DNA of 64,000 nucleotides from Pseudomonas serboccidentalis. GTDB taxonomy: Bacteria; Pseudomonadota; Gammaproteobacteria; Pseudomonadales; Pseudomonadaceae. The stretch covers positions 5,475,976 to 5,539,975 of the forward strand of contig NZ_CP101655.1 of the NCBI RefSeq assembly GCF_028830055.1, in the 5' to 3' direction. Each line of letters starts with the position of its first letter. Position 1 is the first letter of the stretch. Shown here in pieces: positions 3,645 to 19,124 of this stretch. A program made the position numbers and the translations under genes. The notes under the pieces are model-generated. The model did not search any database, was not told where the DNA came from, and was given only the letters and a program-made list of their open reading frames with translations.

Positions 3645-3663
3645 TGGTGCCGAGGGAGACTCG
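3645..3663 (-). repeat. Left attachment site (attL): copy of tRNA-Leu 3' end
   Basis: TGGTGCCGAGGGAGACTCG repeats the 3' end (T-arm, acceptor strand and CCA) of the tRNA-Leu at 19040-19124. A 14-base core, CCGAGGGAGACTCG, is identical at 3650-3663 and 19047-19060. Two bases of the acceptor strand are missing here, as expected for a non-functional leftover copy. Confidence 0.75.
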
Positions 3664-3707
3664 TGCGTTCTATATAATTCGTGGCTTGCGGACAAATTAT
3701 ACAGTGA

Positions 3708-3727
3708 GGGATACAGATAGGGATACA
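3708..3727 (+). repeat. Left-end GGGATACA repeats (candidate integrase arm sites)
   Basis: GGGATACA occurs at 3708-3715 and 3720-3727. The same octamer occurs in a cluster at 18906-18933 beside the integrase. Repeats shared by both ends of an integrative element, just inside att, are what arm-type integrase or excisionase sites look like. Confidence 0.5.
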
Positions 3728-3750: not shown

Positions 3751-4638
3751 TCACGTCGGATCGATATTTAGTTTGAAAAGGACGTCATCGGTTGATGCCT
3801 GGTAACAGCTGACGTGAGCGAGCATCGAGTTTTCGCCGATCAGTTCAAGAAATTTTGCCCTAATGGCCTGGGGCATGCGAGCTCCTAGTATCACAGACTT
3901 GATGCAGGAGGAGGGGAACTCAAAAAGGTGGTAGGTTTTCTCGTGAACCGACAGGACCGTTGTAGCGTCATTCAAGTCCACCATCATTCGCCACTCTCGT
4001 TCGTAGGACCAATGCTCGCTCTTCGTGAGCATGGCTTTCATATCGGCATTATCGAAGATCAGTGATGGCCTGACATTTGAGTATTTAACAGGCCTGAGGT
4101 GCCTGAATTCATCTTTTGCAGATCGCCGCTGATTAAAAAAAACTGACTCTGGATCGAATTCGATCACAAAGCCCTCATGGGAGCACGCGTAGTGCGCCCA
4201 CATCAAAATGTCGTCGGGTTTCTCCGTCAGGCAAAGAATACCAACTCTGTTTTCCATTACTTGATTAAAGCGTGAGTGAAGGGCAGGAGTTAGCTCCTTC
4301 AGGATTTTGAGAAAGCCATTATCTTTCGAAAGCAATTGAGCTCGCGCCCGAGACTCAATTTGCCTTTTCGTCGCTTGATTCCTAAAGGGGGGAGGTAGCT
4401 CGGCGAGCGTCTCTTCGATCAGGGCGGGCAGCAGCTCATCGACCATAGCCCACATCGATTCGTCTGATTCATAAAGGCGTACAGGGGGCTTCAGCTCAAA
4501 CGGGTCATTAAGGTTGAGCGAAGAGGAGAAGCAAATTTTGCACGCCTCCAAGACATCGATCCGGTCGGAATGTAGATATTTGAACAGTCGCGGCGGTGTC
4601 GTCTGGGAAGAAGCGTCAGATTCACTCGGGCTTTGCAT
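3751..4638 (-). CDS. DUF2971 domain protein
   Basis: A 295-residue protein with the hallmarks of DUF2971. Near residue 17 it has LFKYL, then LEACKICFSSSLNLNDPFELK (the F.S...NDPFE motif), and in the middle GILCLTEKPDDILMWAHYACSHEGFVIEFD (the C.T......MW.HYA..H.G..I.F. block). The biochemical role of the family is unknown, but it turns up often on mobile elements. It is the cargo gene nearest attL. The start ATG overlaps the end of the upstream 76-residue gene by 17 bases, so the pair is probably translated together. Confidence 0.85.
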   Translation of the reverse strand: MQSPSESDASSQTTPPRLFKYLHSDRIDVLEACKICFSSSLNLNDPFELKPPVRLYESDESMWAMVDELLPALIEETLAELPPPFRNQATKRQIESRARAQLLSKDNGFLKILKELTPALHSRFNQVMENRVGILCLTEKPDDILMWAHYACSHEGFVIEFDPESVFFNQRRSAKDEFRHLRPVKYSNVRPSLIFDNADMKAMLTKSEHWSYEREWRMMVDLNDATTVLSVHEKTYHLFEFPSSCIKSVILGARMPQAIRAKFLELIGENSMLAHVSCYQASTDDVLFKLNIDPT

Positions 4639-4852
4639 CAGAGCCAGCCTCAGCAGAAAGTGAGATTAAGGCGAGAGTCAGAAACCCTTCATTCCTATCC
4701 AAAGCAGCCAGGGCGCCTCGAACGTTATCAGCCACGTCTATGGAGCCACGTTGTTCAACCCAGTTCGAAAGCTCTTCTACAGCAGCCCCTAACGCGATTT
4801 GGTTTTCGTTGATGCGTTTTAGTACCGAAACCAGTAGTGCTTTGTCTTCCAT
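4622..4852 (-). CDS. Small acidic protein paired with DUF2971 gene
   Basis: A 76-residue acidic, helical protein (MEDKALLVSVLKRINENQIALG...). Its last 17 bases overlap the start of the DUF2971 gene on the same strand. That overlap and its normal amino-acid make-up support a real gene. It has no recognised domain; a helper or an antitoxin-like partner of the DUF2971 protein is conceivable, but nothing in the sequence proves it. Confidence 0.6.
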   Translation of the reverse strand: MEDKALLVSVLKRINENQIALGAAVEELSNWVEQRGSIDVADNVRGALAALDRNEGFLTLALISLSAEAGSDAKPE

Positions 4853-5066
4853 GAATTGTTCCCATTTTTCAGCCTGCGGTCAGCGAACGTTCCAGTCAAT
4901 GAGCCTAGTCCAAGCATCGTATGCCGGCGGTTACCCAAATACCACTGGGGACCCTGAGAGTATTCTTCTTACACGGGGTCGGAAACCCGCGGGATCTTGT
5001 TAGCGGCACAACTTTAAGCTTATTGAATTTCAATCATTGAAATCGAAAGGGTTTCGTTTGAAAAAG

Positions 5067-5095
5067 GCCATCGTTACAGGGGCGGTAACGATGGC
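5067..5095 (-). terminator. Strong minus-strand terminator with no gene upstream
   Basis: GCCATCGTTAC (5067-5077) and GTAACGATGGC (5085-5095) form a perfect 11-bp stem with a 7-base loop. On the minus strand it is followed by CTTTTTC. No minus-strand gene is visible between here and 5970, so it either ends an RNA or is a relic. Confidence 0.6.
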
Positions 5096-5454
5096 TTGTT
5101 GTGTTGATGATTCCGCACGTCTTCGGTCGTCAACCGTGGCAACCTGTCAACCAATGCAAAAAAATCAACCGGCCTCAAGATCACGCGGGTTTTATGCCCC
5201 GGGTCGTTTAGAAATACCCAGACTCCCCCGGCTACCTCCCAGTACCTTGTGCAAGTGCACTGTTGAGCTGCGTGTTCATCTAGTTCACCAGTTCACTAAG
5301 CTGGGCACCTGTCCGCTGACACCGTCCCGCGGTTACCGACCCGTGTCTCAAACCTAGTCTCAGGGGCTCCGGCACAACATGGGGAAAACGCCTGATATCG
5401 CTGGCGGCGATTGATGCCTCCGGGGAGTGGGGATCCGAAACCGTGAATAGATTG

Positions 5455-5577
5455 GTGTTACTGAAGTTACGGGTGTAACGAAGCGGGGTAAGTGCCTGTA
5501 TTTATTGGATATGGACAAAGTAACATTCGCTTTGTGTGCGCGTTTTGATGAGTGTTACTAGTCCAATAGGTGTAACG
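5455..5577. repeat. Two GTGTTAC-N11-GTGTAACG sites
   Basis: GTGTTAC at 5455-5461 and GTGTAACG at 5473-5480 are separated by 11 bases; GTGTTAC at 5552-5558 and GTGTAACG at 5570-5577 are also separated by exactly 11 bases, with different spacer sequence. The same half-sites cluster at 17481-17603. This is the pattern of a sequence-specific DNA-binding protein, either an operator or replication iterons. Confidence 0.55.
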
Positions 5578-5970
5578 CTTGAAAGTTGAAAGGTAGAGGC
5601 TTGAAGGCAGCACTTACAAGGCAGAAAAGGGAGGGGCGGCCCTTTCTAATAATGTGGTCGAGAATGCCATACGTTCCGACACTCAGAGTGAATAGTGGAT
5701 TGACTTCCACAGAAAAGACCACGCTTGGCAGGGCTTCGGCAGGCCTTGGAAGGCGACGCGGCTAACCGCCCAGAGAACCACGATGAGCCGGCCACAAAGG
5801 GCGTGACCTGTGAGTACATCCGCTTAGCTAAAATAGCGCATTGACGTTTTGTGTGGCTTGGGGCAATTTGCCTTCATGTGAATCTCTGCCGGCCCTTCAC
5901 AAAAGGGCCAGGGTGGCTTCCGGCGTTATGATCATGGAGGCGAGGATAATGAAGGTTAAGGAGCAATAGA

Positions 5971-8900
5971 ATGGTTGAAATTAAAGTAATTACTTTGAAT
6001 GCAGTTCCTAACTCCTTAATTACTAGTATCGAAAGTCGGGACGTATCTCTTTGGGTTAGAGATATCGATAATAATAAGTTCTCAGCTGAGACGTTAGCAA
6101 AGTTTATTGGGCTGCCATGGCGCTCGGTGTTCATGGAGTCCTACTGCCCAGAGGTAATAAAGTTACTTGAGAGTTCGCTAAGCTTTGAAGCATCAGAGAC
6201 TCGAAAGCGCGGTTTTATACAGGTTGTTGATAGCGACCCCTCAGCTATAACTTTGCCTCATAGATGTTTGCCTCTCTACCTTTTATCTGGCAGATCTTCC
6301 CTCCAGACAAATGATTTCAAAAGTAAGCTTCGACGAATGTCGATGCTAAATGTATTACAAGAGTCTCAAGTCAGAAACGTTTTGGTAATAGGCGAGGGCG
6401 TGGATGCAGTTCCTGCTGCATTAGGCGAGCTTTGGGATTCGGGATTTAAATCTTATCTCACGGTATGTACAACTGTTCCAGGCGCTATTAACCTTTTGGA
6501 GCAGTGGGTTGATAAGCATGGCGATACCCATACAGCAAACTTTTTACATCGAAGTATAGATGAATTAAGTGTGGAGGTTGTTAGCAGGTATCACGAAACA
6601 TACCCAGATACTGCTACTATGGTAAGGATGAGGCAGAGAGACGGTGGTTTTCGAAATGTCGATCTATCCTCTGCTGATGACCCTCAGCGTCCAATCTCTG
6701 AAAATTATAGCATCATCCAATTAAAAGATTTATCGCCGCTGGTTCCAGAAGATTTACCTGAAGAGGAATTTATTGATTTTTTTAAAAACTCTGAGGATTC
6801 TTGGAAGCCCTACGCTGCAGGGGTGCCTTGGATTAGAGATAAAGCAGCTTCAAGGAAGTTGACAGGCTACATGAATCGCCTGGACGCAACAGGTGCTGAC
6901 GATAACTGTATTGCATATATCGCATCTGAGTCAGGCGCCGGCGGAACTACATTAGCTCGTGCTCTCGCATGGGAGCTAGCACGCGAGGGATACCCGGTAC
7001 TCATAGCTAAACACTTGCCATTTACTCCTGATGCGTTAAGTGTTTCAAATTTCCTTACTCGTGCGCACGAGTGCTTTGAGACTGGGGCGTCGGCGGTAGT
7101 GGATTCGGGGGAGGGGGAGGTTGTTACCACCAAGGGTAGCGCATCCAAGAGGTACGAAACTCCTTGGGTAATATTGTTTGATAGCTTGCATTGGCAAGGG
7201 CGCGACGCGGAGTTGCAAAGGTTTAATCAAGAATTAATTAAATCCGGCCGTCCAGCTTGTCTATTGGTTGTGACCGGCACTGTTCTTGGTCTTTCTTATT
7301 ATAGTTCCGTATTCAAGAAGCTTGCCGAGCTTAATCATGCGATCGATGAGGAGAGTACCCGTGATTTGGGGCGTCATCTCAATAAGTTTTTGAAAGTTTA
7401 TGGGAAAGTAAGAAATGAAGCTCAGTGGAATAACTTTTATAAGTCCCACTCAGTCGAATATATAGAGGGAGTAGCAGCTTTTTGGGTTGCGCTCTCATTT
7501 TGGATACAAGGGCAGTACGATCTGTCTGAATCTATACAGACTTGGATGTATCGTAATTTTAAAGAGTCAACCGACAGCGTCCTCATCCAGCGCGCAGTAG
7601 TTGAAATTGCGGCGCTGAGTTCGGAGCGTCTCCCTTTGCCTGAAGGTCTTCTGATTTCCGAGCCAGGCCAATGGCCTACCTCTCATTTATTAGAAGACCA
7701 GAGGGCGGCGCTGTCATCGCTTGGGTTAGTGAAGGTCGCCGCTAATGGCGAGCGATACTGGGCTCTTACTCACGATATTCTTGGGCGCTTTCTGCTAAAT
7801 GCAATATTTTACGATAATGCAATGAAAATTCTTTTAGGGCTGGATGCAGCACGGGATGCCGAGCATCTAAGGTTTTTGGTCCTAGAGCAGATATCACAAA
7901 AGTCTCAGCTTGGGGAGGTCCGTTACAGAACCATCGGTGAAGATTTTTCTAAGTCTATTTTTAAAATTGACCCAGCACATGGTCGCGCTAATTTTCTATT
8001 TTTTTGGCGAGAGGTACTTGATGCCTTAGATCGTATGCCGTCAGGTTTGCGTAATACTAGTAGGGTTTTTCGGCACCATACAGCTATTTCAAGGCGGCGG
8101 ATTGCAAAGATTGATGAGCGTAGTAATACCGTCAGTAGTCTTGAAAGGAAAGAGTTACTTCAGGCCGCGATTGTGGATATTCGGTATGCGCTTGAGTTTA
8201 TACAGTATGAGCCAGGCTCGGAGCCGGATATAAATTTATATAACTCTTTGGCTAATGCGTATTTAGACTTGGCTCGAATCCAGACAGCTCTGGAAGAGCC
8301 AAAGCCAGATATTATCGAAAATATGTTGTTGGCTAGTGTCGCCACGAAAAAGGCATACGATCAAAATCCGAGCAGTCCATTTGTAATTGAGACGTATGTT
8401 AAGCATTTATTGGAAGAAGCATCGCTAGCGCCAGTGGAAAGCGCTATTGGCCACTGCGTAGAAATATTAGGGGTGTTGTTCTCGGCGCTATCGTCAAATT
8501 CTCATACTAGGCGAAATGTACAGCTGCAAAGTCTAGCGGATGAAGCAATACGTAAGTTGTTCAGGCTAAGTCCTTTCGATTTGGCGGCAAAGGAGCCTGA
8601 GAATGCTATTGATATGCTCGTTAATGCATGGAAGATTTTGGCCCGTGACTTTCCTGATTTAGAGAGAATGGATTTCTCTATGGTCTCTAAGGAAACTAGA
8701 TCAGAAGCTATTGATCTTTTGTCTCACTCTTTGGGTGTTGGAAATATCCAGGTCCTTAGTCTACGTTATGAACTGATTTCTCTCAATGAGCCTTATGGTT
8801 ATAAAGGGCAGCTTGAGATATTGGAGCAAATAGTATCTTCGAATTACCGCGCTCCGCTTCAGCTAAGCTTGGAGTACGCAATTTTACTATTTCAGGTAGG

Positions 8901-9231
8901 TAGGGCAGTTGAAGGTGATCGAATTTTTAGGGACCTGAGGAGGACATGGAGGGATAGCGAATATTATGTTCAGGTTCCCACTCGGCTTAGATGGTTGCGG
9001 ATAGCTGATTCCGATCAACTTCAAGTGGTTCATGCCGAAACTGGATCGGACTATGAGAAGCGATCGCTTGCTAAAGTTCAAGAGTTTGTCAACGTCGCTG
9101 TACCTTTTAGGGTACAAGAATTTGGCCATCGTGAGCTTAAGCCGGGAATAAGGTTCTTTGCACACGTATCTTTTGGACATAATGGGCCATTTTTGCGTCC
9201 CGTCCTGTCATCAACTCAACGGGATGAATAG
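5971..9231 (+). CDS. SAMD9-like STAND NTPase (candidate anti-phage sensor)
   Basis: A 1086-residue cytoplasmic protein with AAGGAG ahead of its ATG. Residues 1-270 match nothing I know. At 277-301 comes SWKPYAAGVPWIRDK..., then a lysine-less P-loop ESGAGGTTLARALAWEL (320-336) and a Walker-B-like strand PWVILFDSLHWQ with D404. A helical NTPase lid with THDILGRFLL near residue 600, helical TPR-like repeats (about 700-1030), and a short C-terminal beta module (VPFRVQEFGHRELKPGIRFFAH...FGHNGP) follow. From memory, human SAMD9 has GSGGTTLAMHILWEL preceded by W..Y....P...RDKY, TPR helices and a similar C-terminal OB-like end; the shared order makes homology likely. The gene is AT-rich against its GC-rich surroundings. 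It overlaps the next gene by 8 bases. A role in phage sensing with abortive growth arrest is inference. Confidence 0.7.
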   Translation: MVEIKVITLNAVPNSLITSIESRDVSLWVRDIDNNKFSAETLAKFIGLPWRSVFMESYCPEVIKLLESSLSFEASETRKRGFIQVVDSDPSAITLPHRCLPLYLLSGRSSLQTNDFKSKLRRMSMLNVLQESQVRNVLVIGEGVDAVPAALGELWDSGFKSYLTVCTTVPGAINLLEQWVDKHGDTHTANFLHRSIDELSVEVVSRYHETYPDTATMVRMRQRDGGFRNVDLSSADDPQRPISENYSIIQLKDLSPLVPEDLPEEEFIDFFKNSEDSWKPYAAGVPWIRDKAASRKLTGYMNRLDATGADDNCIAYIASESGAGGTTLARALAWELAREGYPVLIAKHLPFTPDALSVSNFLTRAHECFETGASAVVDSGEGEVVTTKGSASKRYETPWVILFDSLHWQGRDAELQRFNQELIKSGRPACLLVVTGTVLGLSYYSSVFKKLAELNHAIDEESTRDLGRHLNKFLKVYGKVRNEAQWNNFYKSHSVEYIEGVAAFWVALSFWIQGQYDLSESIQTWMYRNFKESTDSVLIQRAVVEIAALSSERLPLPEGLLISEPGQWPTSHLLEDQRAALSSLGLVKVAANGERYWALTHDILGRFLLNAIFYDNAMKILLGLDAARDAEHLRFLVLEQISQKSQLGEVRYRTIGEDFSKSIFKIDPAHGRANFLFFWREVLDALDRMPSGLRNTSRVFRHHTAISRRRIAKIDERSNTVSSLERKELLQAAIVDIRYALEFIQYEPGSEPDINLYNSLANAYLDLARIQTALEEPKPDIIENMLLASVATKKAYDQNPSSPFVIETYVKHLLEEASLAPVESAIGHCVEILGVLFSALSSNSHTRRNVQLQSLADEAIRKLFRLSPFDLAAKEPENAIDMLVNAWKILARDFPDLERMDFSMVSKETRSEAIDLLSHSLGVGNIQVLSLRYELISLNEPYGYKGQLEILEQIVSSNYRAPLQLSLEYAILLFQVGRAVEGDRIFRDLRRTWRDSEYYVQVPTRLRWLRIADSDQLQVVHAETGSDYEKRSLAKVQEFVNVAVPFRVQEFGHRELKPGIRFFAHVSFGHNGPFLRPVLSSTQRDE

Positions 9232-9937
9232 CGTTATGACGGACCATATCGCGATGTACGCCGCATCTCTTGGTATGCAAATCAAGCCCCGTACTATTTT
9301 AGTAGAGGGCACATCTGATGTCGCACTCTTGGGTTTGGTTTCATCTCTCGAAAAAGAACTCTCTGGCAAAGAACTTTTTGGGGACTTTGCTATTGTTGCA
9401 GCAGGAGAGAGAGATCAAGGAGGGGTGAATGGTGTTGTGCGGGAACTAATTGCATTCCGAGGGATGGCAAGAACTTTTTTGCAACCCAACGGGAAACCTG
9501 TTTATAGATTTGTCGGGTTGTTTGATAACGATTGGGCTGGCAGAAGAGCCATCGCAACTGCTCGTGATCTGGATTCCAGTATTCTAGAATACAAAGATGT
9601 TTTTAGGTTGATGCCTGTTATGCCTGAACCAGGTAATTTGGACCCAGGAACAGTTGCAGCGGCTTTTGCTCGTAGTAATGAGCCATATAAGGGTTTGGAC
9701 TGGGAAATAGAAGATTTGGTTTCTGAGGAGTTGATAAGTGCTTTCGATGATGAGCATTACGGCGCTATTAAAAAACGCAATGTTCTAGCGGATAAAACGC
9801 ATCATGAATTTACCCGGGACGGTAAAGCGCAGCTTCATAGGTTTGTAAAACTACACGGGATGCGAGAGGATTTGATGAAAGTCGTTGAGCTAATTCATGC
9901 TTTGCGTTGCTATCTCAACCTACCCTCATTGCGATAG
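9224..9937 (+). CDS. OLD-type TOPRIM domain protein coupled to the SAMD9-like gene
   Basis: A 237-residue protein. I use the ATG at 9224, which overlaps the NTPase stop by 8 bases; an ATG at 9236 is a possible alternative. TOPRIM signatures are clear: TILVEGTSDVALL with E28 and, later, FVGLFDNDWAGRRA with D101 and D103, matching the E and DxD metal-binding residues of OLD-family and topoisomerase-primase folds. No ABC-type ATPase is attached, unlike OLD nucleases. Coupling to the NTPase suggests that this is the effector or a processing nuclease of a two-gene system. Base composition is AT-rich like its partner. It ends before a bidirectional terminator. Confidence 0.75.
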   Translation: MNSVMTDHIAMYAASLGMQIKPRTILVEGTSDVALLGLVSSLEKELSGKELFGDFAIVAAGERDQGGVNGVVRELIAFRGMARTFLQPNGKPVYRFVGLFDNDWAGRRAIATARDLDSSILEYKDVFRLMPVMPEPGNLDPGTVAAAFARSNEPYKGLDWEIEDLVSEELISAFDDEHYGAIKKRNVLADKTHHEFTRDGKAQLHRFVKLHGMREDLMKVVELIHALRCYLNLPSLR

Positions 9938-10050
9938 CATCTATAGCGAAGAAGGTCTAACGGTATACTTTCCTGAAATACTCAGAAAGTCGAAGGCAGA
10001 CCATAGGATTACTGTGAGATGTTAAACACTCTCACTGTTTGCGCATAAAC

Positions 10051-10076
10051 AAAAAGGGCTCTCTTGAGCCCTTTTT
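10051..10076. terminator. Bidirectional terminator between cargo and MvaT-like gene
   Basis: AAAAAGGGCTC (10051-10061) and GAGCCCTTTTT (10066-10076) form an 11-bp stem with a TCTT loop, with A/T tracts suitable for termination on both strands. Confidence 0.9.
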
Positions 10077-10090
10077 CAGATGAAGCGATC

Positions 10091-10456
10091 TTACTTGTTC
10101 AGCCAGCTCTCGACTACATCGGAACCGTGCTGGTTTTTCCACTCCTTCAGCGTCTTGTGATTGCCGCCTTTGGTTTCAACCACTTCACCTGTGTGCGGGT
10201 TCTTGTAGATCTTCAGTTCACGAGGTTTACGCTTGCCTGGTGCCGCCGCCGGCGTTGAAGCGCGCTTCGTGCTCTGTGGATCCAGCAGGTTGATGATGTG
10301 CTTGAGGCTGAAACCGTACTGATTCAGCAGCTCTCGCAGCTTGGTCTCGAACTCGATCTCTTTTTTCAGCGCACCGTCGCTCTTCATCGACTCCAGTGCC
10401 TGGAGCTGTTCAGCGAGGTGTTTTTCCAGCTGACGGTATTCGGCAAGTTTGGACAT
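10091..10456 (-). CDS. MvaT/MvaU-family xenogeneic silencer (H-NS-like)
   Basis: A 121-residue protein with the full architecture of Pseudomonas MvaT. An N-terminal coiled coil (EYRQLEKHLAEQLQALESM) serves oligomerisation. Then come KLRELLNQYGFSLKHIINLLDP, a basic proline-rich linker, and a C-terminal AT-rich-DNA-binding domain KIYKNPHTGEVVETKGGNHKTLKEW, nearly the family consensus. It is not the housekeeping copy: it lies inside the island beside AT-rich cargo, like the plasmid paralogue Pmr. It probably binds and silences the AT-rich NTPase/TOPRIM region or mingles with the host MvaT/MvaU pool. Confidence 0.9.
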   Translation of the reverse strand: MSKLAEYRQLEKHLAEQLQALESMKSDGALKKEIEFETKLRELLNQYGFSLKHIINLLDPQSTKRASTPAAAPGKRKPRELKIYKNPHTGEVVETKGGNHKTLKEWKNQHGSDVVESWLNK

Positions 10457-10516
10457 GGTTTTTTCCTATGTTTGTTTAATGACAGTTTGAATTTTGTGCG
10501 GCTCAAAAGTTCAGCC

Positions 10517-10708
10517 CTATTCTGGCAGCTTCAGATACTCCTTAATGCTAATAATCTCTGCCTTGATCAATTTTACCGTGAGAATCTCGACTTTCGTTTT
10601 TATGCGAGGTTTGTCCACGAACTCCAGCATTTCCGATAAGGAGACTATTCTTGCTTTCAGTAGGTCTTTCCAGTTGGGGGTGTTTCTAAGGTCAAATTGA
10701 ATGATCAT
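10517..10708 (-). CDS. Small Lys/Ile-rich hypothetical protein
   Basis: A 63-residue frame with ATG at 10708 and a weak AGG ribosome site. Composition (many Ile, Leu, Lys; KIEILTVKLIKAEIISIKEYL-like helices) is protein-like and AT-rich, similar to the other cargo. It sits between the coiled-coil gene and the MvaT-like gene on the same strand. No family recognised, and it could be spurious. Confidence 0.45.
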   Translation of the reverse strand: MIIQFDLRNTPNWKDLLKARIVSLSEMLEFVDKPRIKTKVEILTVKLIKAEIISIKEYLKLPE

Positions 10709-11826: not shown

Positions 11827-14745
11827 TCAGGCAGCCCGAGCCTCGCTCTCATCCGTTCCCGGAATCCTCTTCACGATGTAGCAGCGCTGGGGCCCAAGTC
11901 CGGGCAATCGGACCAGACTCGATGCCTTGCCATCGCTGGCCGGCTCCAGCACGCCGCGCTGCAACAACTCCTTGTTCACGGCGTTGATGTTCATGCCCCG
12001 GAAGATTTCGGAGCGCCATGCCTCCGGCAGCACGTAATAGGTGTTGGTGGTGTGCATGGTGTCGCCCATACCGTGCTCCAGCGTCTTGCGAAAACCGAGG
12101 CGGTCGATGGTGCGCGGACCGTGTTCATCGATCTTCGCCGCTGCCGATTCCCAGCGAGTGAAGCGACTTTCGCCGAAGCGTTCGATGACCTGGCGCAGCC
12201 GCGCCAAAATCGCATCGCCCTCGAAGTTTCCGGCGCCACCGCGCTCGTGGAGCCAAGCGTTCAAGCACACGCGAGCGGCGGTGGTGGCCGTGCCATCCGG
12301 CCAGCCGGTGATGCCCATCGCGGTGGCCAACTCGCCAGCGGCTGCTGCAAGGCCGAAGCGGGCGGCAGCGCGGTGCGCCTGTCCGCTGGCGGATGCAGGG
12401 AGCGACTGCGCAATAAAGCCTTCCAGCGTGCGGCGCAGGATTGCCGCCCAGCCGTGGCGCTTGCCGGGTTCGCATAGCGCGGACAGGAACGCGGTAAGCG
12501 GGGTGCCGTAGTAGTTCGCTACGCGAGCCTTGAGTGCGTCGGACAGAGTGGCGGCGTCTTCGAAACCGTTGAGTGTGTCGAACATGCCAAGGCCTCTGCT
12601 GGCATCCGCCGGAACGGCGAGCATGCGTACCTCCATGCCGGCTTTCAGCTCCTTGTTGGCCTCGGCCATGTGCTGGGCTAAGGTCTTTTCACCGGTGGAG
12701 AGAAACAGCAGGCGCCATTCCTGCACCTGTCGGCCCGCTTGGCCTCGATCATTGGCGCGGGCCTTGCCGGTGCCGTTGCCGAGCATGTACACGGTCTCGC
12801 CGATGATGCGGGCATCACACATGCCGATTTCATCGAGCACCAGAAGCCCGTCGGAATGCGCGGCAGCGATCGACTCAAGCGCGTTGTCGGTCGAGCGCCA
12901 CGAGCGCACCAGGCGCGGCCCTCCGTAAACCGAGGCGGCAACCTGCAGGTGCGTGGTCTTGCCGCCGGAGCTGTCGCCGTACAGGTGAAAGCCGCCCGAT
13001 TCGTGGCCGAGCATGTGCAACAGGGGGCCGGCGAAGGCCACGCCGACGACAAACGCCAAACGATGGTTGCCGATACACAGCGCACCGATTTGCTGTTGCC
13101 ATTGTTCCAACGTGCCCGCTTCGCTGATCGGCGGAAGCTGCGCGCCGGCCTCGTAGAAGTGCAGGTGTTCCGCGTGCATGCCGACCTGTTGCTCGGGCAA
13201 CAGAAAGGCGTTGTCATGCCAACCCAAACGAGTGACCAGACGCGCACGTTGAGCACTGTCGAAGCCGCCCAGGTAACTCTGCAAATCGTTGCGTGCGTTG
13301 CGCCCCGAACGACTGCCGGCTAGACGCAACCCCATGTCCACCAATGGGCCGAGTACGTCCTTACCGAAGTCGCCGGTCATGGTGCGCGCCGGGATGTTCC
13401 AGCGTTTCTTGGTGCCGTCGGGGTCGTCGAACTCGACCAGCAAGCCCCAGTTGTGGCCCTTCTCGTCACGGGTACGCGCAAGGATCGCCAGCGGCGAACA
13501 TACCGGGCGTGCTTCACCGTCGTCGCCGGCATAAAACACACCTTCGGGCGTCAGGCGAAAGCCTCCCGGCATCAGATCGTTTTTCGATTTTGCCGGACGC
13601 TTGGTTGCTGCTTTGGGTTTCGGTTCCGGCTCTGGTTCCGGCTTGGGTCCCACCTGGGCAATTACCGGTTTTTCTTCGATCACTCCGAACAGCTCGCCGC
13701 TGCTTTGCAGTTCGGCGAAGTGGCCCGCGCTCCAGCCTTTGGCGAGCGCATCGGCGGCATCGTCGCCGTCATCCCATTGACCACCTTTGGCGAACGCGGC
13801 GTGGTCGTTCTTCAACGTTGGCTTGCGTTTAAACACCTCCAGCGCGATGACCCGGACCGAGGCGGCGCCGATTTCCCGCAGCCTCTCGGCGACGATGTCC
13901 ATGCAGGCTTTACCGCTATCATCGTTGTCCGGCCACAACACCACGTCGCGTCCCTTGAGCGGCGTCAGGTCGGCTTTGTGCCAGGAGTTGGAGCCGTTCG
14001 GCCAGCAGGTGGCCACGTAGTCCTGCAGCAACTCAGCGGCGGCATCTGCCGCTTTCTCGCCTTCGCACAGAACCACCGGTGCGTCGGCGCGCTGGGCCAG
14101 TTCATCAAGGCGCAGCAGCGGACGCGGATCCGGCAGCCCCTGCCAGCGCCATTGTTTGGTTTGGCTATCGGCGCGCTGACACCACGTCAGGGGCGCAAAG
14201 ACCTTCTTCGGCTTGCCGTCTTCATCGGGGCCGAGGTCGAAGCGATACAGCGCCATGAGCGGCTGACCCTGCGCGTCACGATAGATCCAGACCTTGGACG
14301 GCACACCATGATCACGATGCTTGGCCGGACACTTGTTCATGGCCTCGGCCGGGATCGGCTGGATGGCGTTCCACGTCGGTGCCTTCGACTTACTTGGGGC
14401 GGCCTTAACCTTGGCGGCGCCGGGCGCAACGTTCAGCCAATCTGCCAGTTTGTGGCAGGCTTCCACGTCGGTGCCGCCGTCCAGATAGCGCACCAGATCG
14501 ATCAGGTCGCCGCCTTTGTCGCCGGTGGCAAAGTCTGCCCAGGTACCCTTGTTCAAATTGACCTTGAGCGAACCGGCGCGCTTGTCGCTGCGGGTTGGAT
14601 TGGGGGCGGTGTATTCCTTGCCGCCGTCCACGCGCTTGCCATTGGGCAGCCAGTGCGACAAGACACGATCAATGTCTTTCAGCGCGGCGGCTTTCACGTC
14701 GGCAAAGCTTGGGCGTTTCGCGGTGCTGTTCGGGCGCTGGCTCAT
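11827..14745 (-). CDS. P4-like replication protein: TOPRIM primase with DUF927 helicase domain
   Basis: A 972-residue replication protein. The N-terminal 90 residues resemble a CHC2-type primase lead (NLNKGTWADFATGDKGGDLIDL). A TOPRIM domain follows near 215-300: VVLCEGEKAADAAAE and DVVLWPDNDDSGKACM. A linker rich in Pro/Glu/Lys leads to DUF927 from about residue 390 (GGFRLTPEGVFYAGDDG). Its SF3-like ATPase core has Walker A GDSSGGKTTHLQ and Walker B GLLVLDEIGMCD. This is the standard island replication enzyme, the functional counterpart of P4 alpha. The start ATG overlaps the preceding gene by 4 bases, so it is translated as part of that operon. Confidence 0.9.
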   Translation of the reverse strand: MSQRPNSTAKRPSFADVKAAALKDIDRVLSHWLPNGKRVDGGKEYTAPNPTRSDKRAGSLKVNLNKGTWADFATGDKGGDLIDLVRYLDGGTDVEACHKLADWLNVAPGAAKVKAAPSKSKAPTWNAIQPIPAEAMNKCPAKHRDHGVPSKVWIYRDAQGQPLMALYRFDLGPDEDGKPKKVFAPLTWCQRADSQTKQWRWQGLPDPRPLLRLDELAQRADAPVVLCEGEKAADAAAELLQDYVATCWPNGSNSWHKADLTPLKGRDVVLWPDNDDSGKACMDIVAERLREIGAASVRVIALEVFKRKPTLKNDHAAFAKGGQWDDGDDAADALAKGWSAGHFAELQSSGELFGVIEEKPVIAQVGPKPEPEPEPKPKAATKRPAKSKNDLMPGGFRLTPEGVFYAGDDGEARPVCSPLAILARTRDEKGHNWGLLVEFDDPDGTKKRWNIPARTMTGDFGKDVLGPLVDMGLRLAGSRSGRNARNDLQSYLGGFDSAQRARLVTRLGWHDNAFLLPEQQVGMHAEHLHFYEAGAQLPPISEAGTLEQWQQQIGALCIGNHRLAFVVGVAFAGPLLHMLGHESGGFHLYGDSSGGKTTHLQVAASVYGGPRLVRSWRSTDNALESIAAAHSDGLLVLDEIGMCDARIIGETVYMLGNGTGKARANDRGQAGRQVQEWRLLFLSTGEKTLAQHMAEANKELKAGMEVRMLAVPADASRGLGMFDTLNGFEDAATLSDALKARVANYYGTPLTAFLSALCEPGKRHGWAAILRRTLEGFIAQSLPASASGQAHRAAARFGLAAAAGELATAMGITGWPDGTATTAARVCLNAWLHERGGAGNFEGDAILARLRQVIERFGESRFTRWESAAAKIDEHGPRTIDRLGFRKTLEHGMGDTMHTTNTYYVLPEAWRSEIFRGMNINAVNKELLQRGVLEPASDGKASSLVRLPGLGPQRCYIVKRIPGTDESEARAA

Positions 14746-15453: not shown

Positions 15454-15829
15454 TTGTGAAGGCTCCTTGTACTGAGGAACCGCCACCGTCTGCCGCCAAG
15501 CAGATTAGGGTGACGGATTGCGCAGGATTGGCGGACCGGCGTACAAGGAGACCGGCGCACCCGAGGGTGCTCCTACGCAACCCGCCATAACACGGGAATG
15601 CGGGCACAAAAAAAGCGCCTGCAATCGTAATGGGGGCGCTGTTGCGCCTTGTACTGTATGGGCCGCCAAGCCCAATCGCTGAATTTGCAGCGACGCCCAG
15701 AGAGTAACGTCCGTTTTTCCAAAGTGCAACTGCGCTGATGGCTTGCGGTTTTTTCAGGTGCGGCATAAATTGTTCGAGCATGTAGATTGACCTCAACGCC
15801 TCCGGATCGCTTCCGGAGGCGTTTTCGTT
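15454..15829 (-). promoter_or_regulatory. Leader of the primase operon, with hairpins and an Ash-like frame
   Basis: 376 bases of leader upstream of the operon. It contains short GC hairpins (for example GGGGGCGC...GCGCC around 15635-15650) and a perfect inverted repeat AACGCCTCCGGA / TCCGGAGGCGTT at 15795-15823. On the minus strand a 74-codon frame (15505-15729) carries AGCVGAPSGAPVSLYAG, resembling the G.PxG.PVS..AG signature of Ash-family frames found at the same place in P4-like elements. In phage P4 the leader of the alpha operon makes the CI immunity RNA; whether this leader does so is inference. Confidence 0.4.
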
Positions 15830-16135
15830 TCAGGCATGGGCTTCCCAGCGCAGGGAGAGAAGGGGCAGGAATCCTCCGCTGAGCATGGAGCGGGCATCTT
15901 CGTAGGCGTCGACCTGCTGGCCTTCGTCGACGACTACGGCACCCGTCTTTTCGCAGTGGAGGGAGAGGGCGCACCAGGTGCCGTCGGCCCAACTGAGCAC
16001 GCTGACAACGCGACCTTGCCTGTCATGCTGGCTGCGGTAGCGTTCAAGACGCTGCATGACGCGAGACGAGAAACCGATCCGACGCAACACGGAAAAGGGA
16101 TGCATCAAAGCGTTGTTTGCAGTCTTGTGGCTCAT
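15830..16135 (-). CDS. Hypothetical protein co-translated with AlpA-like regulator
   Basis: A 101-residue protein starting MSHKTANNALMHPF at 16135, overlapping the alpA-like stop by 4 bases. It has a basic N-terminal half (RIGFSSRVMQRLERYRSQHDRQGRVVSVL) and the segment SWADGTWCALSLHCEKTG. No family recognised. It lies between the regulator and the primase operon leader, a usual place for small replication or copy-control proteins in such islands. Confidence 0.65.
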   Translation of the reverse strand: MSHKTANNALMHPFSVLRRIGFSSRVMQRLERYRSQHDRQGRVVSVLSWADGTWCALSLHCEKTGAVVVDEGQQVDAYEDARSMLSGGFLPLLSLRWEAHA

Positions 16136-16413
16136 GCAGCCACCTGATCGCGTGCCTCGATGCGGCTGCGCGCCCACGCTTGAACTTCAGAAAGGACCCA
16201 GGCGACAGGGGCGCCGCGTGCGTTGCTGTTGCTCAGTTTGACGGGCTGCGGAAAGCCGCAGTCGGTGCGCTGCATCAGTTTGTAGATGGTCGAACGCTTC
16301 ATCCCCACGATGCCTTCCACCTCCCGCATGCGGATCAAAGTTGAAGTGGCATCAAAAAGTGAGGTGGCGTTGGCGGGAGTCTTGCGGGGAAAATCGGTGA
16401 CAGAGGTGTTCAT
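16132..16413 (-). CDS. AlpA-family transcriptional regulator
   Basis: A 93-residue protein of the AlpA / MerR-like helix-turn-helix family. LIRMREVEGIVGMKRSTIYKLMQRTDCGFPQPVKL is the classical AlpA motif, and WVLSEVQAWARSRIEARD the usual ending. Members in P4-like islands control integrase/excision and replication genes. It is preceded by about 100 non-coding bases that must carry its promoter, and it overlaps the next gene by 4 bases. Confidence 0.9.
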   Translation of the reverse strand: MNTSVTDFPRKTPANATSLFDATSTLIRMREVEGIVGMKRSTIYKLMQRTDCGFPQPVKLSNSNARGAPVAWVLSEVQAWARSRIEARDQVAA

Positions 16414-17353: not shown

Positions 17354-17637
17354 GCGAATGGCTCTCGACGTGCAACCCGCTTTCCCTCGCCCTGCGAGTT
17401 TGAAGCGTAGCCAGCGGGCTTTGCGCTATGGCCAAGTGTGAGGGAGTGTCGGCCCGCAGCAGGCAAGGGGCCTATCGTAGCGTTACACAATCGGCGTGCG
17501 TTACATCGAGTGTACGGAATAGCGTGCTGGAGTGTAACGGGGTTCAAAGCCAATGAATCCGGGGGATTGGCCGGCACCGTTACACGAGTAACACTCGTAA
17601 CATGGATTCTGGAGGCGGTATGGATAGGTGCATTCAT
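17350..17637 (-). CDS. Small basic protein between integrase and 279-residue gene
   Basis: A 95-residue frame (MNAPIHTASRIHVTSVTRVTVP...) with 4-base overlaps at both ends: with the integrase stop upstream and with the next start downstream. That arrangement argues it is translated. The composition (Val-Thr repeats, many Arg/Ala) comes partly from GTTAC repeats lying in the DNA, so it could instead be a frame kept open over a cis-acting region. Confidence 0.5.
   Translation of the reverse strand: MNAPIHTASRIHVTSVTRVTVPANPPDSLALNPVTLQHAIPYTRCNARRLCNATIGPLPAAGRHSLTLGHSAKPAGYASNSQGEGKRVARREPFA
17481..17603. repeat. Cluster of GTTAC/GTGTAACG half-sites
   Basis: CGTTACAC at 17481-17488 and 17578-17585, CGTTACA at 17499-17505, GTGTAACG at 17532-17539, GTAACAC at 17588-17594 and CGTAACA near 17597-17603. 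These are the same half-sites as at 5455-5577. In the circular form of the island the two clusters would lie about 3.4 kb apart across att, similar in plan to the ori/crr pair of P4. Confidence 0.5.
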
Positions 17638-18875
17638 ACCGCTTCTCCAAATTGTTCCTTGGTCACCTGGTCGTTTGCCAACGCATCAAGGTGATCTGCA
17701 TACCACTGCATCATCTTCACCCTGTACTCTAGGTATTGAGCCTTGTTGTATACCCCGGATATTCCCTCTTCTTTGTGAGCAAGCTGCGCTTCGACATGCT
17801 CTTTCGGCCAGCCGTGTTCCCTGAGCAAAGTGCTGGCGGTGTGGCGAGTCCCATGCCCAACCAAGCGGCCTTTGTAACCAACCGTCGCGAAGACTTTATT
17901 GATTGTGTTTTCACTAATCGTTGGATTCTTCGCGCCCACTCCGGGGAAAAGCCAGCGGCTGCGACCAGTAAGGCAGTGAAGTTCTTTGAGAGCGGAAAGC
18001 GCTTGCTTAGGGAGTGGGCATACAAAGTCCCTGCGCATCTTCATCTTGGCGGCAGGCGTCGTCCATAACGCTTTATCAAGGTCGAACTCTTTCCATTCAG
18101 CTAACCGAACCATGCCCGGTCTAGATGCGGTCCAGATACAGAGCCATGCTGCAGTCCGGGCCGTCAGCCTGCTGGGAGTGTTTTTGAGTGCTTGGAGGAA
18201 CTCTGCCAACTCAGGCTCAAGTAAATGAGGATGTTGCTGAGTCTTCGGAGCTTGAGCTGCAATATCTCGTAGCCGACTGCCCGGATCGTTTTCCGTGAGG
18301 CCCAAACCGATGGCTCGCCCGAATATCTGATTGATCCAAGTGCGACACTTTTCCGCCACGTTGTGTGCGTCCCGGGCTTCGATGGATGCTTGGAGCTCCG
18401 CGCAGTCGGTACGGGTGACTTCGTCTAGAGGCTTATCTCCCAGTGCCGGAAGTATGTCTTTGTCGAGGTAGGTGCGGATTTTGTTGAGAGTGGAGGGTGC
18501 GAGACCCTTTTCCTCTTTTGCCTTCAGCCAGGCATCAGCGGCAGCTCGAAAGGTTCGGGTCTTGGCCGCATCGATAGCAGCTTTCGCGGATCGCTTTTGT
18601 TCAAGAGGATCGGCACCGCTACTCACTACTTTGCGTAGATCGGCAGCTTTGTCCCTTGCCAACGCGCCACTAACTTCCGGGTAACCCCCGAGCCCCATCC
18701 AAGCCCAATTGCCCGCCGGACGTTTGTAGCGGAGCTGCCAGGATTTACCACCATCAGGTTTAACCCTGAAGTAGAGGCCGTTTCCGTCCAGCTCCCTGTA
18801 TTCCTTTGATTCCGGCTCCAATCCCGCAAGTGTCGTGTCAGCGAGAGGGCGGCGCTTGATGTCTGCGCGCTTCAT
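17634..18875 (-). CDS. int: P4-type tyrosine recombinase (island integrase)
   Basis: A 413-residue integrase starting MKRADIKRRPLADTTLAGL at 18875; the longer frame upstream runs through the GGGATACA repeats and is unlikely to be translated. The N-terminal DUF4102 arm-binding domain has the typical DGNGLYFRVKPDGGKSWQLRYKRP. The catalytic domain shows TASRPGMVRLAEW (first Arg), HGTRHTASTLL (H-x-x-R) and the terminal tyrosine in GVYNKAQYLEYR. It is the gene next to the tRNA-Leu att site, reads away from it, and would catalyse integration into the tRNA 3' end. Confidence 0.93.
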   Translation of the reverse strand: MKRADIKRRPLADTTLAGLEPESKEYRELDGNGLYFRVKPDGGKSWQLRYKRPAGNWAWMGLGGYPEVSGALARDKAADLRKVVSSGADPLEQKRSAKAAIDAAKTRTFRAAADAWLKAKEEKGLAPSTLNKIRTYLDKDILPALGDKPLDEVTRTDCAELQASIEARDAHNVAEKCRTWINQIFGRAIGLGLTENDPGSRLRDIAAQAPKTQQHPHLLEPELAEFLQALKNTPSRLTARTAAWLCIWTASRPGMVRLAEWKEFDLDKALWTTPAAKMKMRRDFVCPLPKQALSALKELHCLTGRSRWLFPGVGAKNPTISENTINKVFATVGYKGRLVGHGTRHTASTLLREHGWPKEHVEAQLAHKEEGISGVYNKAQYLEYRVKMMQWYADHLDALANDQVTKEQFGEAV

Positions 18876-18878
18876 CCT

Positions 18879-18933
18879 TGTATCCCAAAGTTCGGTATTT
18901 TTCTCAGGATACAAGCAGGGATACAGGGATACA
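18879..18933. repeat. Right-end GGGATACA repeats (candidate integrase arm sites)
   Basis: GGGATACA at 18918-18925 and 18926-18933, AGGATACA at 18906-18913, and an inverted copy TGTATCCC at 18879-18886. They lie between the integrase start and the tRNA, matching those at 3708-3727. Confidence 0.5.
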
Positions 18934-18969
18934 ACGGATAAGGGGAGACAGGGGTAGACAGACAGGCAC

Positions 18970-18995
18970 AAAAAAACCGGCCAAGTGGCCGGTTT
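18970..18995 (-). terminator. Terminator now serving tRNA-Leu
   Basis: AAACCGGCCA/TGGCCGGTTT stem (18974-18995) with a run of T on the minus strand (18970-18976). It belongs to the island side of the att site, so the island supplies the tRNA with a new terminator. Confidence 0.85.
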
Positions 18996-19039: not shown

Positions 19040-19124
19040 TGGTGCCCCGAGGGAGACTCGAACTCCCACTCCTTTCGAAAACGGATTTTGAATCCGCCGC
19101 GTCTACCAATTCCGCCATCAGGGC
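19040..19124 (-). tRNA. tRNA-Leu(CAA), island integration site
   Basis: An 85-base tRNA. The acceptor stem GCCCTGA (5' end at 19124) pairs with TCGGGGC; the D-arm is GCGGAATTGGTAGACGC, the anticodon loop TTCAAAA (anticodon CAA), there is a short variable arm, the T-arm GGGAGTTCGAGTCTCCC, and encoded CCA. The anticodon reads UUG leucine codons. The 3' portion is shared with the left att copy, so the tRNA's 3' end is now contributed by the island. Confidence 0.95.
19047..19060 (-). repeat. Right attachment site (attR) core
   Basis: CCGAGGGAGACTCG, identical to 3650-3663, inside the T-arm and acceptor strand of tRNA-Leu. Confidence 0.75.

Follow-up and report, generated by a model that had tools for sequence, protein, structure and literature searches.

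A SAMD9-like STAND protein paired with a TOPRIM protein in the cargo slot of a P4-like island of Pseudomonas serboccidentalis: a candidate two-gene anti-phage system

Two adjoining genes of Pseudomonas serboccidentalis are the subject of this analysis. They were located in a stretch of 64,000 nucleotides of contig NZ_CP101655.1 (assembly GCF_028830055.1, positions 5,475,976 to 5,539,975), referred to here as the window, with coordinates counted from its first letter. The first gene (5971-9231, + strand) encodes a SAMD9-like STAND protein of 1086 residues, assigned from Pfam, a structure model, and Foldseek, and called the NTPase below; the second, which ends at 9937 on the same strand, encodes an OLD-type TOPRIM protein, a predicted nuclease effector. 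Both are enclosed by an island of about 15.4 kb, running from an att repeat at 3645-3663 to a tRNA-Leu gene at 19040-19124. A first-pass annotation, made from the letters and their open reading frames, had proposed the pair as an anti-phage system in an island cargo slot; its reading of the large gene as a frame of 1086 codons was correct.

Pfam resolved the large protein into an iSirtuin domain at residues 12-195 (PF24403, 9.4e-49), in the region that the first-pass annotation had left unassigned, and an nSTAND_NTPase7 domain at residues 302-712 (PF24404, 2.2e-147), which contains the P-loop; TPR-like helical repeats follow at about residues 720-1000, and an OB-like beta module lies at the C-terminus (about residues 1020-1077). 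The P-loop, GAGGTTLARALAWEL, has no lysine, a hydrophobic, Walker-B-like strand terminates in D404, and the C-terminal FG..GP module has SFGHNGPF; these features, like the helical repeats, had been described beforehand and all were seen. A further motif had been written as W..Y..G.P....DK; its residues are present (W278..Y281..G284.P286...D290K291), but three rather than four residues precede DK. Because the P-loop is without lysine, the STAND module probably binds NTP rather than hydrolyses it. The structure model (mean predicted local distance difference test score, pLDDT, 81; predicted template modelling score, pTM, 0.49) has five strands within residues 1020-1077 and an alignment to SAMD9 that extends to SAMD9 residue 1589, the module having been modelled as part of the whole protein. 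Many VIA-align rows pair the iSirtuin domain with the sirtuin of DSR2, a defence protein, across 180-190 residues at 3.2-4.0 Å. Two family alignments that partly overlap, one of 32 rows and one of 17, both lack any His or Asn conserved at ≥90% within residues 1-240, and the sirtuin fold looks catalytically dead on this sequence evidence, matching the inactive-sirtuin label of Pfam. PADLOC returned no match for the NTPase and none for the TOPRIM protein, a single-sequence search of the PDB with either gave no significant match, and NCBIfam and PHROGs held no informative family for either.

The best fold matches of the NTPase model in the PDB were two human SAMD9 entries (Foldseek E 2.8e-18 and 2.0e-16), so the likeness to SAMD9 recognized at first pass was upheld by structure comparison. 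With entry 9zjz, VIA-align superposed 841 residues, between positions 8 and 1081 of the model and 389 and 1589 of SAMD9; about 11% of the structurally aligned residues are identical. The SAMD9 alignments begin at model residues 7-8 and SAMD9 residues 389-390, which together with the sirtuin-fold matches places a variant Sir2-like domain ahead of the NTPase module, and the helical repeats, which align with SAMD9 as well as with a number of TPR proteins, place a TPR array behind it. PMC13245274 assigns the nucleic-acid-binding tRNase domain of SAMD9 to residues 156-385; since the aligned part of SAMD9 starts at about residue 389 and runs through to the C-terminus, the bacterial protein begins just past this fused tRNase. 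At the sequence level the similarity to SAMD9 is weak, with a top match at E 0.03 and, with a broader profile, E 0.35, below other P-loop proteins. The P-loop of SAMD9 had been given nearly correctly in the first-pass annotation; in the PDB chain it reads GCGGTTLAMHILWEL. In PMC5445408 (Mekhedov et al. 2017), a P-loop with Gly for Lys is described as a mark of SAMD9, bacterial SAMD9 homologues are already reported, and many bacterial members of the family are said to be missing AlbA_2. The NTPase likewise starts at iSirtuin, with no N-terminal AlbA_2/tRNase domain; given those many bacterial members, this absence does not exclude membership in the SAMD9 family. The NTPase shares with SAMD9 and SAMD9L the order Sir2-like domain, STAND P-loop with Gly for Lys, TPR, and, probably, OB-like end, whereas the human proteins also bear SAM and AlbA_2/tRNase domains and the effector of the NTPase is apparently the separate TOPRIM protein. 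The parallel is architectural.

A search of 5.8 billion proteins yielded 247 NTPase homologues at E ≤ 1e-5, the window's own included, and PF24403 and PF24404 were both present in all 120 homologues listed out of these 247 matches. When the search was started from a distant branch, 78 proteins were found, 77 with both domains; the other is a protein of 757 residues from a contig of 2,897 bases. Proteins of NTPase length (n = 196, own included) span 757-1186 residues, with a median of 1086. Their P-loops read GAGGTT in 185, GAGATT (Ala for Lys) in four, GSGGTT in three, GAGGST in three, and GAGGTV in one; none has GKT or GKS. In the 146 of 196 that match an RDxxLW motif, a median of 22 and at most 116 residues precede it, so that these proteins have no space for a sizeable effector fused at the N-terminus; the other 50 are not placed by the motif. 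Chance or artefact is ruled out by the hundreds of homologues and the invariant motif residues.

The TOPRIM gene can be read from either of two starts. ATG 9224 gives a protein of 237 residues, an 8-base overlap with the NTPase gene, and a numbering in which the acidic residues are E28 and D101/D103, as the first-pass annotation had it; ATG 9236 gives 233 residues and is the start used in the closest homologues (P0122 and P0124), in which case the overlap is replaced by a 4-base gap. TTG 9158, the first start of the open reading frame, is unused in a 28-row alignment. Homologues number 366 at E ≤ 1e-3. The structure model has a fold like those of OLD, retron Eco2, and GajA of Gabija, and the acidic residues, an E and a DxD of metal-binding type, are invariant in 28 of 28 rows; in OLD, residues of this kind serve to bind metals A and B (PMC7049728). 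Foldseek of the model against the PDB gave nothing at 0.001 or better (the best, OLD, reached 2.9e-3), a profile search of PDB sequences gave chance-level rows, mostly G proteins, and Pfam had no match for the window's protein. OLD, GajA, and Eco2 share the TOPRIM fold and metal-binding acidic residues with it, but there the fold shares a chain with an ABC ATPase or with a reverse transcriptase, whereas here it is a free-standing protein of 233-237 residues with a STAND neighbour; by Pfam this partner is a STAND protein and not a linked OLD ABC ATPase.

The conserved pairing anticipated at first pass was borne out by a survey of neighbourhoods (loci carry L numbers and genomes G numbers). The TOPRIM gene lies directly downstream of the NTPase gene in 19 of 20 loci, and the twentieth, L044, is cut short within the NTPase by the end of its contig; the 20 include the window itself (L009), a likely duplicate (L010/L055), a near-duplicate (L049/L053), and possibly another (L052/L057, with equal TOPRIM scores). 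When each gene was searched independently against 72,556 plasmid records, both led to the same single record, from Burkholderia stagnalis, where they stand side by side with an IS3 transposase after the pair. Both genes occurred in the same two of 298 same-genus genomes (G000 and G073) and in the same two of 398 same-phylum genomes (G000 and G478), neither being found alone; the two samples share some genomes, and PF24404 was counted above its family cut-off. At E ≤ 0.001, PF24404 was matched in 47 of 298 and 5 of 398 genomes, and above the cut-off in two and two; the matches below it are weak and partial, at about 19-25 bits. At two genomes in each sample, the pair is rare per species. Pairwise distances of the NTPase and TOPRIM proteins across 14 loci were strongly correlated (Mantel r 0.945, reached by none of 10000 permutations). 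These loci comprised the window together with L059 and 12 of the 20. The other eight were excluded: L009 as the window's own entry and L010 as a likely duplicate of L055; L039, in which the end of the locus truncates TOPRIM, and L044, which is also cut; L052 and L057, which lack the start; and L054 and L056, in which genes are broken. Since L049 and L053 are nearly identical, independent pairs number fewer than 14. The correlation shows joint inheritance of the two genes. Among the listed clusters (119 NTPase and 120 TOPRIM), 31 exact source-contig sizes are common to both, an indirect sign of linkage. A scan of contigs with the single NTPase protein found nothing and a further scan found 15 loci; a scan of viral contigs gave two loci, and tblastn of the NTPase against phage records gave no match. 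At L054 (8001-14529, Gluconacetobacter diazotrophicus), the NTPase frame is interrupted and the TOPRIM gene split, which looks like a decayed copy; at L056 the NTPase is broken across several frames.

The island was integrated at a tRNA-Leu(CAA) gene (19040-19124, - strand; ARAGORN and Rfam tRNA). At its far end, an att-like repeat of the 3' end of this tRNA, TGGTGCCGAGGGAGACTCG (3645-3663, + strand), resembles 19040-19060 apart from a 2-base gap; it has one match at up to 3 mismatches, and none arose in 100 shuffles. Adjoining the repeat is a DUF2971 gene (3751-4638, - strand; PF11185 2e-9), a PADLOC candidate (PDC-S31, 7.7e-42) that is a separate cargo gene. Beyond the pair lie a gene for an MvaT-type xenogeneic silencer (10091-10456, - strand; PF22055 3.3e-24), a backbone gene for a DUF927 primase/helicase (11827-14745, - strand; PF06048 7.8e-81; phrog_1139 DNA primase), a C4 antisense RNA, the P4-type immunity RNA (15506-15592, - strand; Rfam RF01695 at 82.8 bits and RF03163 at 56 bits, both over the gathering score), its a1/b1 target (15655-15707, - strand), an excisionase/regulator gene (16132-16413), and the gene for the tyrosine integrase (17634-18971, - strand; PF00589, PF13356, PF22022). 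The backbone is P4-like because the C4 antisense RNA and its target were found by Rfam; a C4 immunity RNA, a primase, and an integrase at a tRNA gene are all present. Three further primase loci were scanned (L069, L070, L076), and each has C4 RNA next to the primase. Among 298 same-genus genomes, 102 (own included) have a match to the primase at E ≤ 0.001, and full-length copies elsewhere reach 95% identity; the island backbone is common in the genus.

Stretches from the cargo end of 18 sister islands were compared, and none has the NTPase or the TOPRIM gene; the pair is cargo in a variable slot of the island. Seven of the 18 have the window's att repeat, and seven stretches (L080-L082, L087, L090, L091, L093) have a copy of MvaT, which in some sister islands forms the inner border of the slot; a tRNA search of seven sister stretches found none. 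A scan of cargo families (PADLOC, 1e-5) covered the seven islands with the att repeat, and 9 of their 20 cargo proteins matched, spread over five islands: PARIS-like AriA and AriB in L081, PDC-M31A/B in L080, PDC-S46 in L091, type II restriction proteins in L092, and a type II methylase with a weak dGTPase match in L085. The remaining 11, including every protein from L083 and L087, had no match at that threshold. The DUF2971 gene of L080 is 99.7% identical to that of the window, and the cargo between DUF2971 and MvaT differs. PMC9122126 describes such defence hotspots in P4-like satellites, with PARIS among their contents. As side observations, AriA and AriB of L081 (4062-7159) are accompanied by a further gene of 289 residues without a PADLOC match, and possible unknown defence genes, unmatched at 1e-5, were seen on the - strand in L091 (2445-5033) and L087 (2928-4076, 5410-6159, 6331-7569).

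Elsewhere the pair has other neighbours. These were scanned as 20 hand-picked proteins from 11 loci, 14 with a Pfam match and six without, one of the six being itself a TOPRIM gene (L048:11249-11956). Conjugation genes lie near the pair in L042, L049, L055, and L056, an integrase and an HsdM-like methylase in L051, a VapE-type primase in L058, a cytosine methylase in L045, and HipA in L049. Three of the 14 matched proteins are housekeeping-like (a photolyase, an M24 peptidase, and a periplasmic binding protein), and L048, L050, and L054 had no clear mobile or defence neighbour among the scanned proteins. In L047 (730-4659, - strand, Gluconacetobacter johannae), a divergently oriented gene for a 1309-residue SIR2_2 protein adjoins the pair.

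We consider it likely that the pair is a two-gene abortive anti-phage system carried by a P4-like satellite, a SAMD9-type STAND sensor with a TOPRIM nuclease acting in trans. Computation shows the domain architecture, the absence of a P-loop lysine, the conservation of acidic residues in the TOPRIM protein, the linkage and co-divergence of the two genes, and their place in a variable slot of a mobile island; sensing, physical interaction, nuclease activity, the substrate, and phage defence itself we infer. The proposed order of events is as follows: the large protein, a STAND-type sensor built like the SAMD9 core, would probably keep the TOPRIM protein inactive, or recruit it; the TPR/OB end would sense a phage product, upon which the STAND protein would change shape or oligomerise; this rearrangement would free the TOPRIM nuclease to cut, and the infected cell would shut off or die before phage release. 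In SAMD9 the tRNA-cutting effector is fused N-terminally; here a separate TOPRIM gene may take that place, as AriB serves AriA in PARIS. PARIS also couples an NTP-binding sensor to a separate TOPRIM effector, and PARIS-like genes occupy the same slot in sister island L081, but AriA is an OLD-type ABC ATPase and not a STAND protein. The parallel, an ATPase sensor releasing a TOPRIM nuclease, is by analogy functional and is not one of membership. Membership in PARIS is ruled out by the nSTAND7 partner and by the lack of a PADLOC match for either protein; comparison of the TOPRIM protein with the AriB-like protein of L081 was not significant.

As the substrate of the TOPRIM protein we tentatively favour RNA, possibly tRNA, over DNA. 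Cleavage of tRNA is the end point in SAMD9 and in PARIS, and may be so here. A bacterial SAMD9-core sensor acting through a separate TOPRIM RNase (a tRNase), so that translation is shut off through tRNA cleavage, as by human SAMD9, but by an effector in trans with an unrelated fold, is a speculative combination, on balance doubtful. About equally doubtful is the same two-gene defence with a TOPRIM protein that acts on DNA in the manner of Gabija and OLD, degrading or nicking that of the phage or of the host.

The likeness to SAMD9 could be merely that of any SIR2-STAND-repeat protein, such as a relative of Avs5, which also combines a SIR2 fold, STAND, and helical repeats and is the second-best fold family in Foldseek. 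We regard this as unlikely: SAMD9 (2.8e-18) beats Avs5, its alignment includes the C-terminal module, Pfam assigns the window's NTPase to nSTAND7 and Avs5 to nSTAND3, and Gly for Lys in the P-loop is the mark given for SAMD9 in PMC5445408, whereas PaAvs5-1 has GKT. PaAvs5 requires Sir2 catalytic activity and has a lysine P-loop; the sirtuin of the NTPase appears to be inactive, and a second gene supplies the predicted effector. Membership in Avs5 itself is ruled out by the missing P-loop lysine, the lack of a conserved His or Asn in residues 1-240, and the presence of PF24404 and PF24403 instead of nSTAND3. In the Avs5 paper the likeness of Avs5 to SAMD9 is already noted, and the term TOPRIM does not occur.

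A toxin-antitoxin-like addiction module, in which the NTPase restrains a toxic TOPRIM protein, the satellite is held in its host, and defence is incidental, is improbable. The tight two-gene arrangement and the co-occurrence would suit it, as would the reported toxicity of retron Eco2 TOPRIM fragments on their own; however, a multi-domain STAND protein of 1086 residues is far bigger than ordinary antitoxins, its TPR/OB end suggests signal sensing, and defence-type genes fill the slot in some sister islands. Least probable of all is a satellite function against the helper phage (interference or hijacking) instead of general host defence, for although the C4 RNA, primase, and tRNA integration make the island P4-like, homologous pairs adjoin conjugation genes, an integrase, or methylases and sit on a large plasmid, and absence from all 18 sister-island stretches examined argues that the pair is not a core satellite function.

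No paper on the NTPase-TOPRIM pair was found in the open-licence literature, which leaves out most subscription papers and preprints, and the terms sirtuin, SAMD9, nSTAND, and TOPRIM are all absent from the main text of PMC7159879. Bacterial SAMD9 homologues, SIR2-STAND defence proteins, and both Pfam domains are already known. To our knowledge there is no earlier STAND defence with a TOPRIM effector, and this would be the first if the tRNase reading is true. In that event, the sensor of the pair would be a candidate living relative of the sensor behind animal SAMD9. If the two-gene reading itself is true, the SAMD9 chassis would be able to exchange effectors, since animals have the tRNase fused to it and bacteria a TOPRIM protein encoded apart; the pair would also offer a small, genetically tractable bacterial system for SAMD9-type infection sensing and effector switching without a P-loop lysine. 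The analysis adds a conserved pair that PADLOC-DB 2.0.0 (2023) fails to recognise, and the suggested two-gene phage defence could be tested in ordinary laboratory bacteria.

Some minor observations concern the island as a whole. A promoter scan gave fewer sites than in shuffles. In a distant blastn of 4600-10600 against plasmids, the best 20 of 247 rows match only over the MvaT stretch. Repeats of the type GGATACAnnnAGGGATACA occur near both island ends, at 3697-3727 and 18907-18925, and are possibly arm sites of the integrase.

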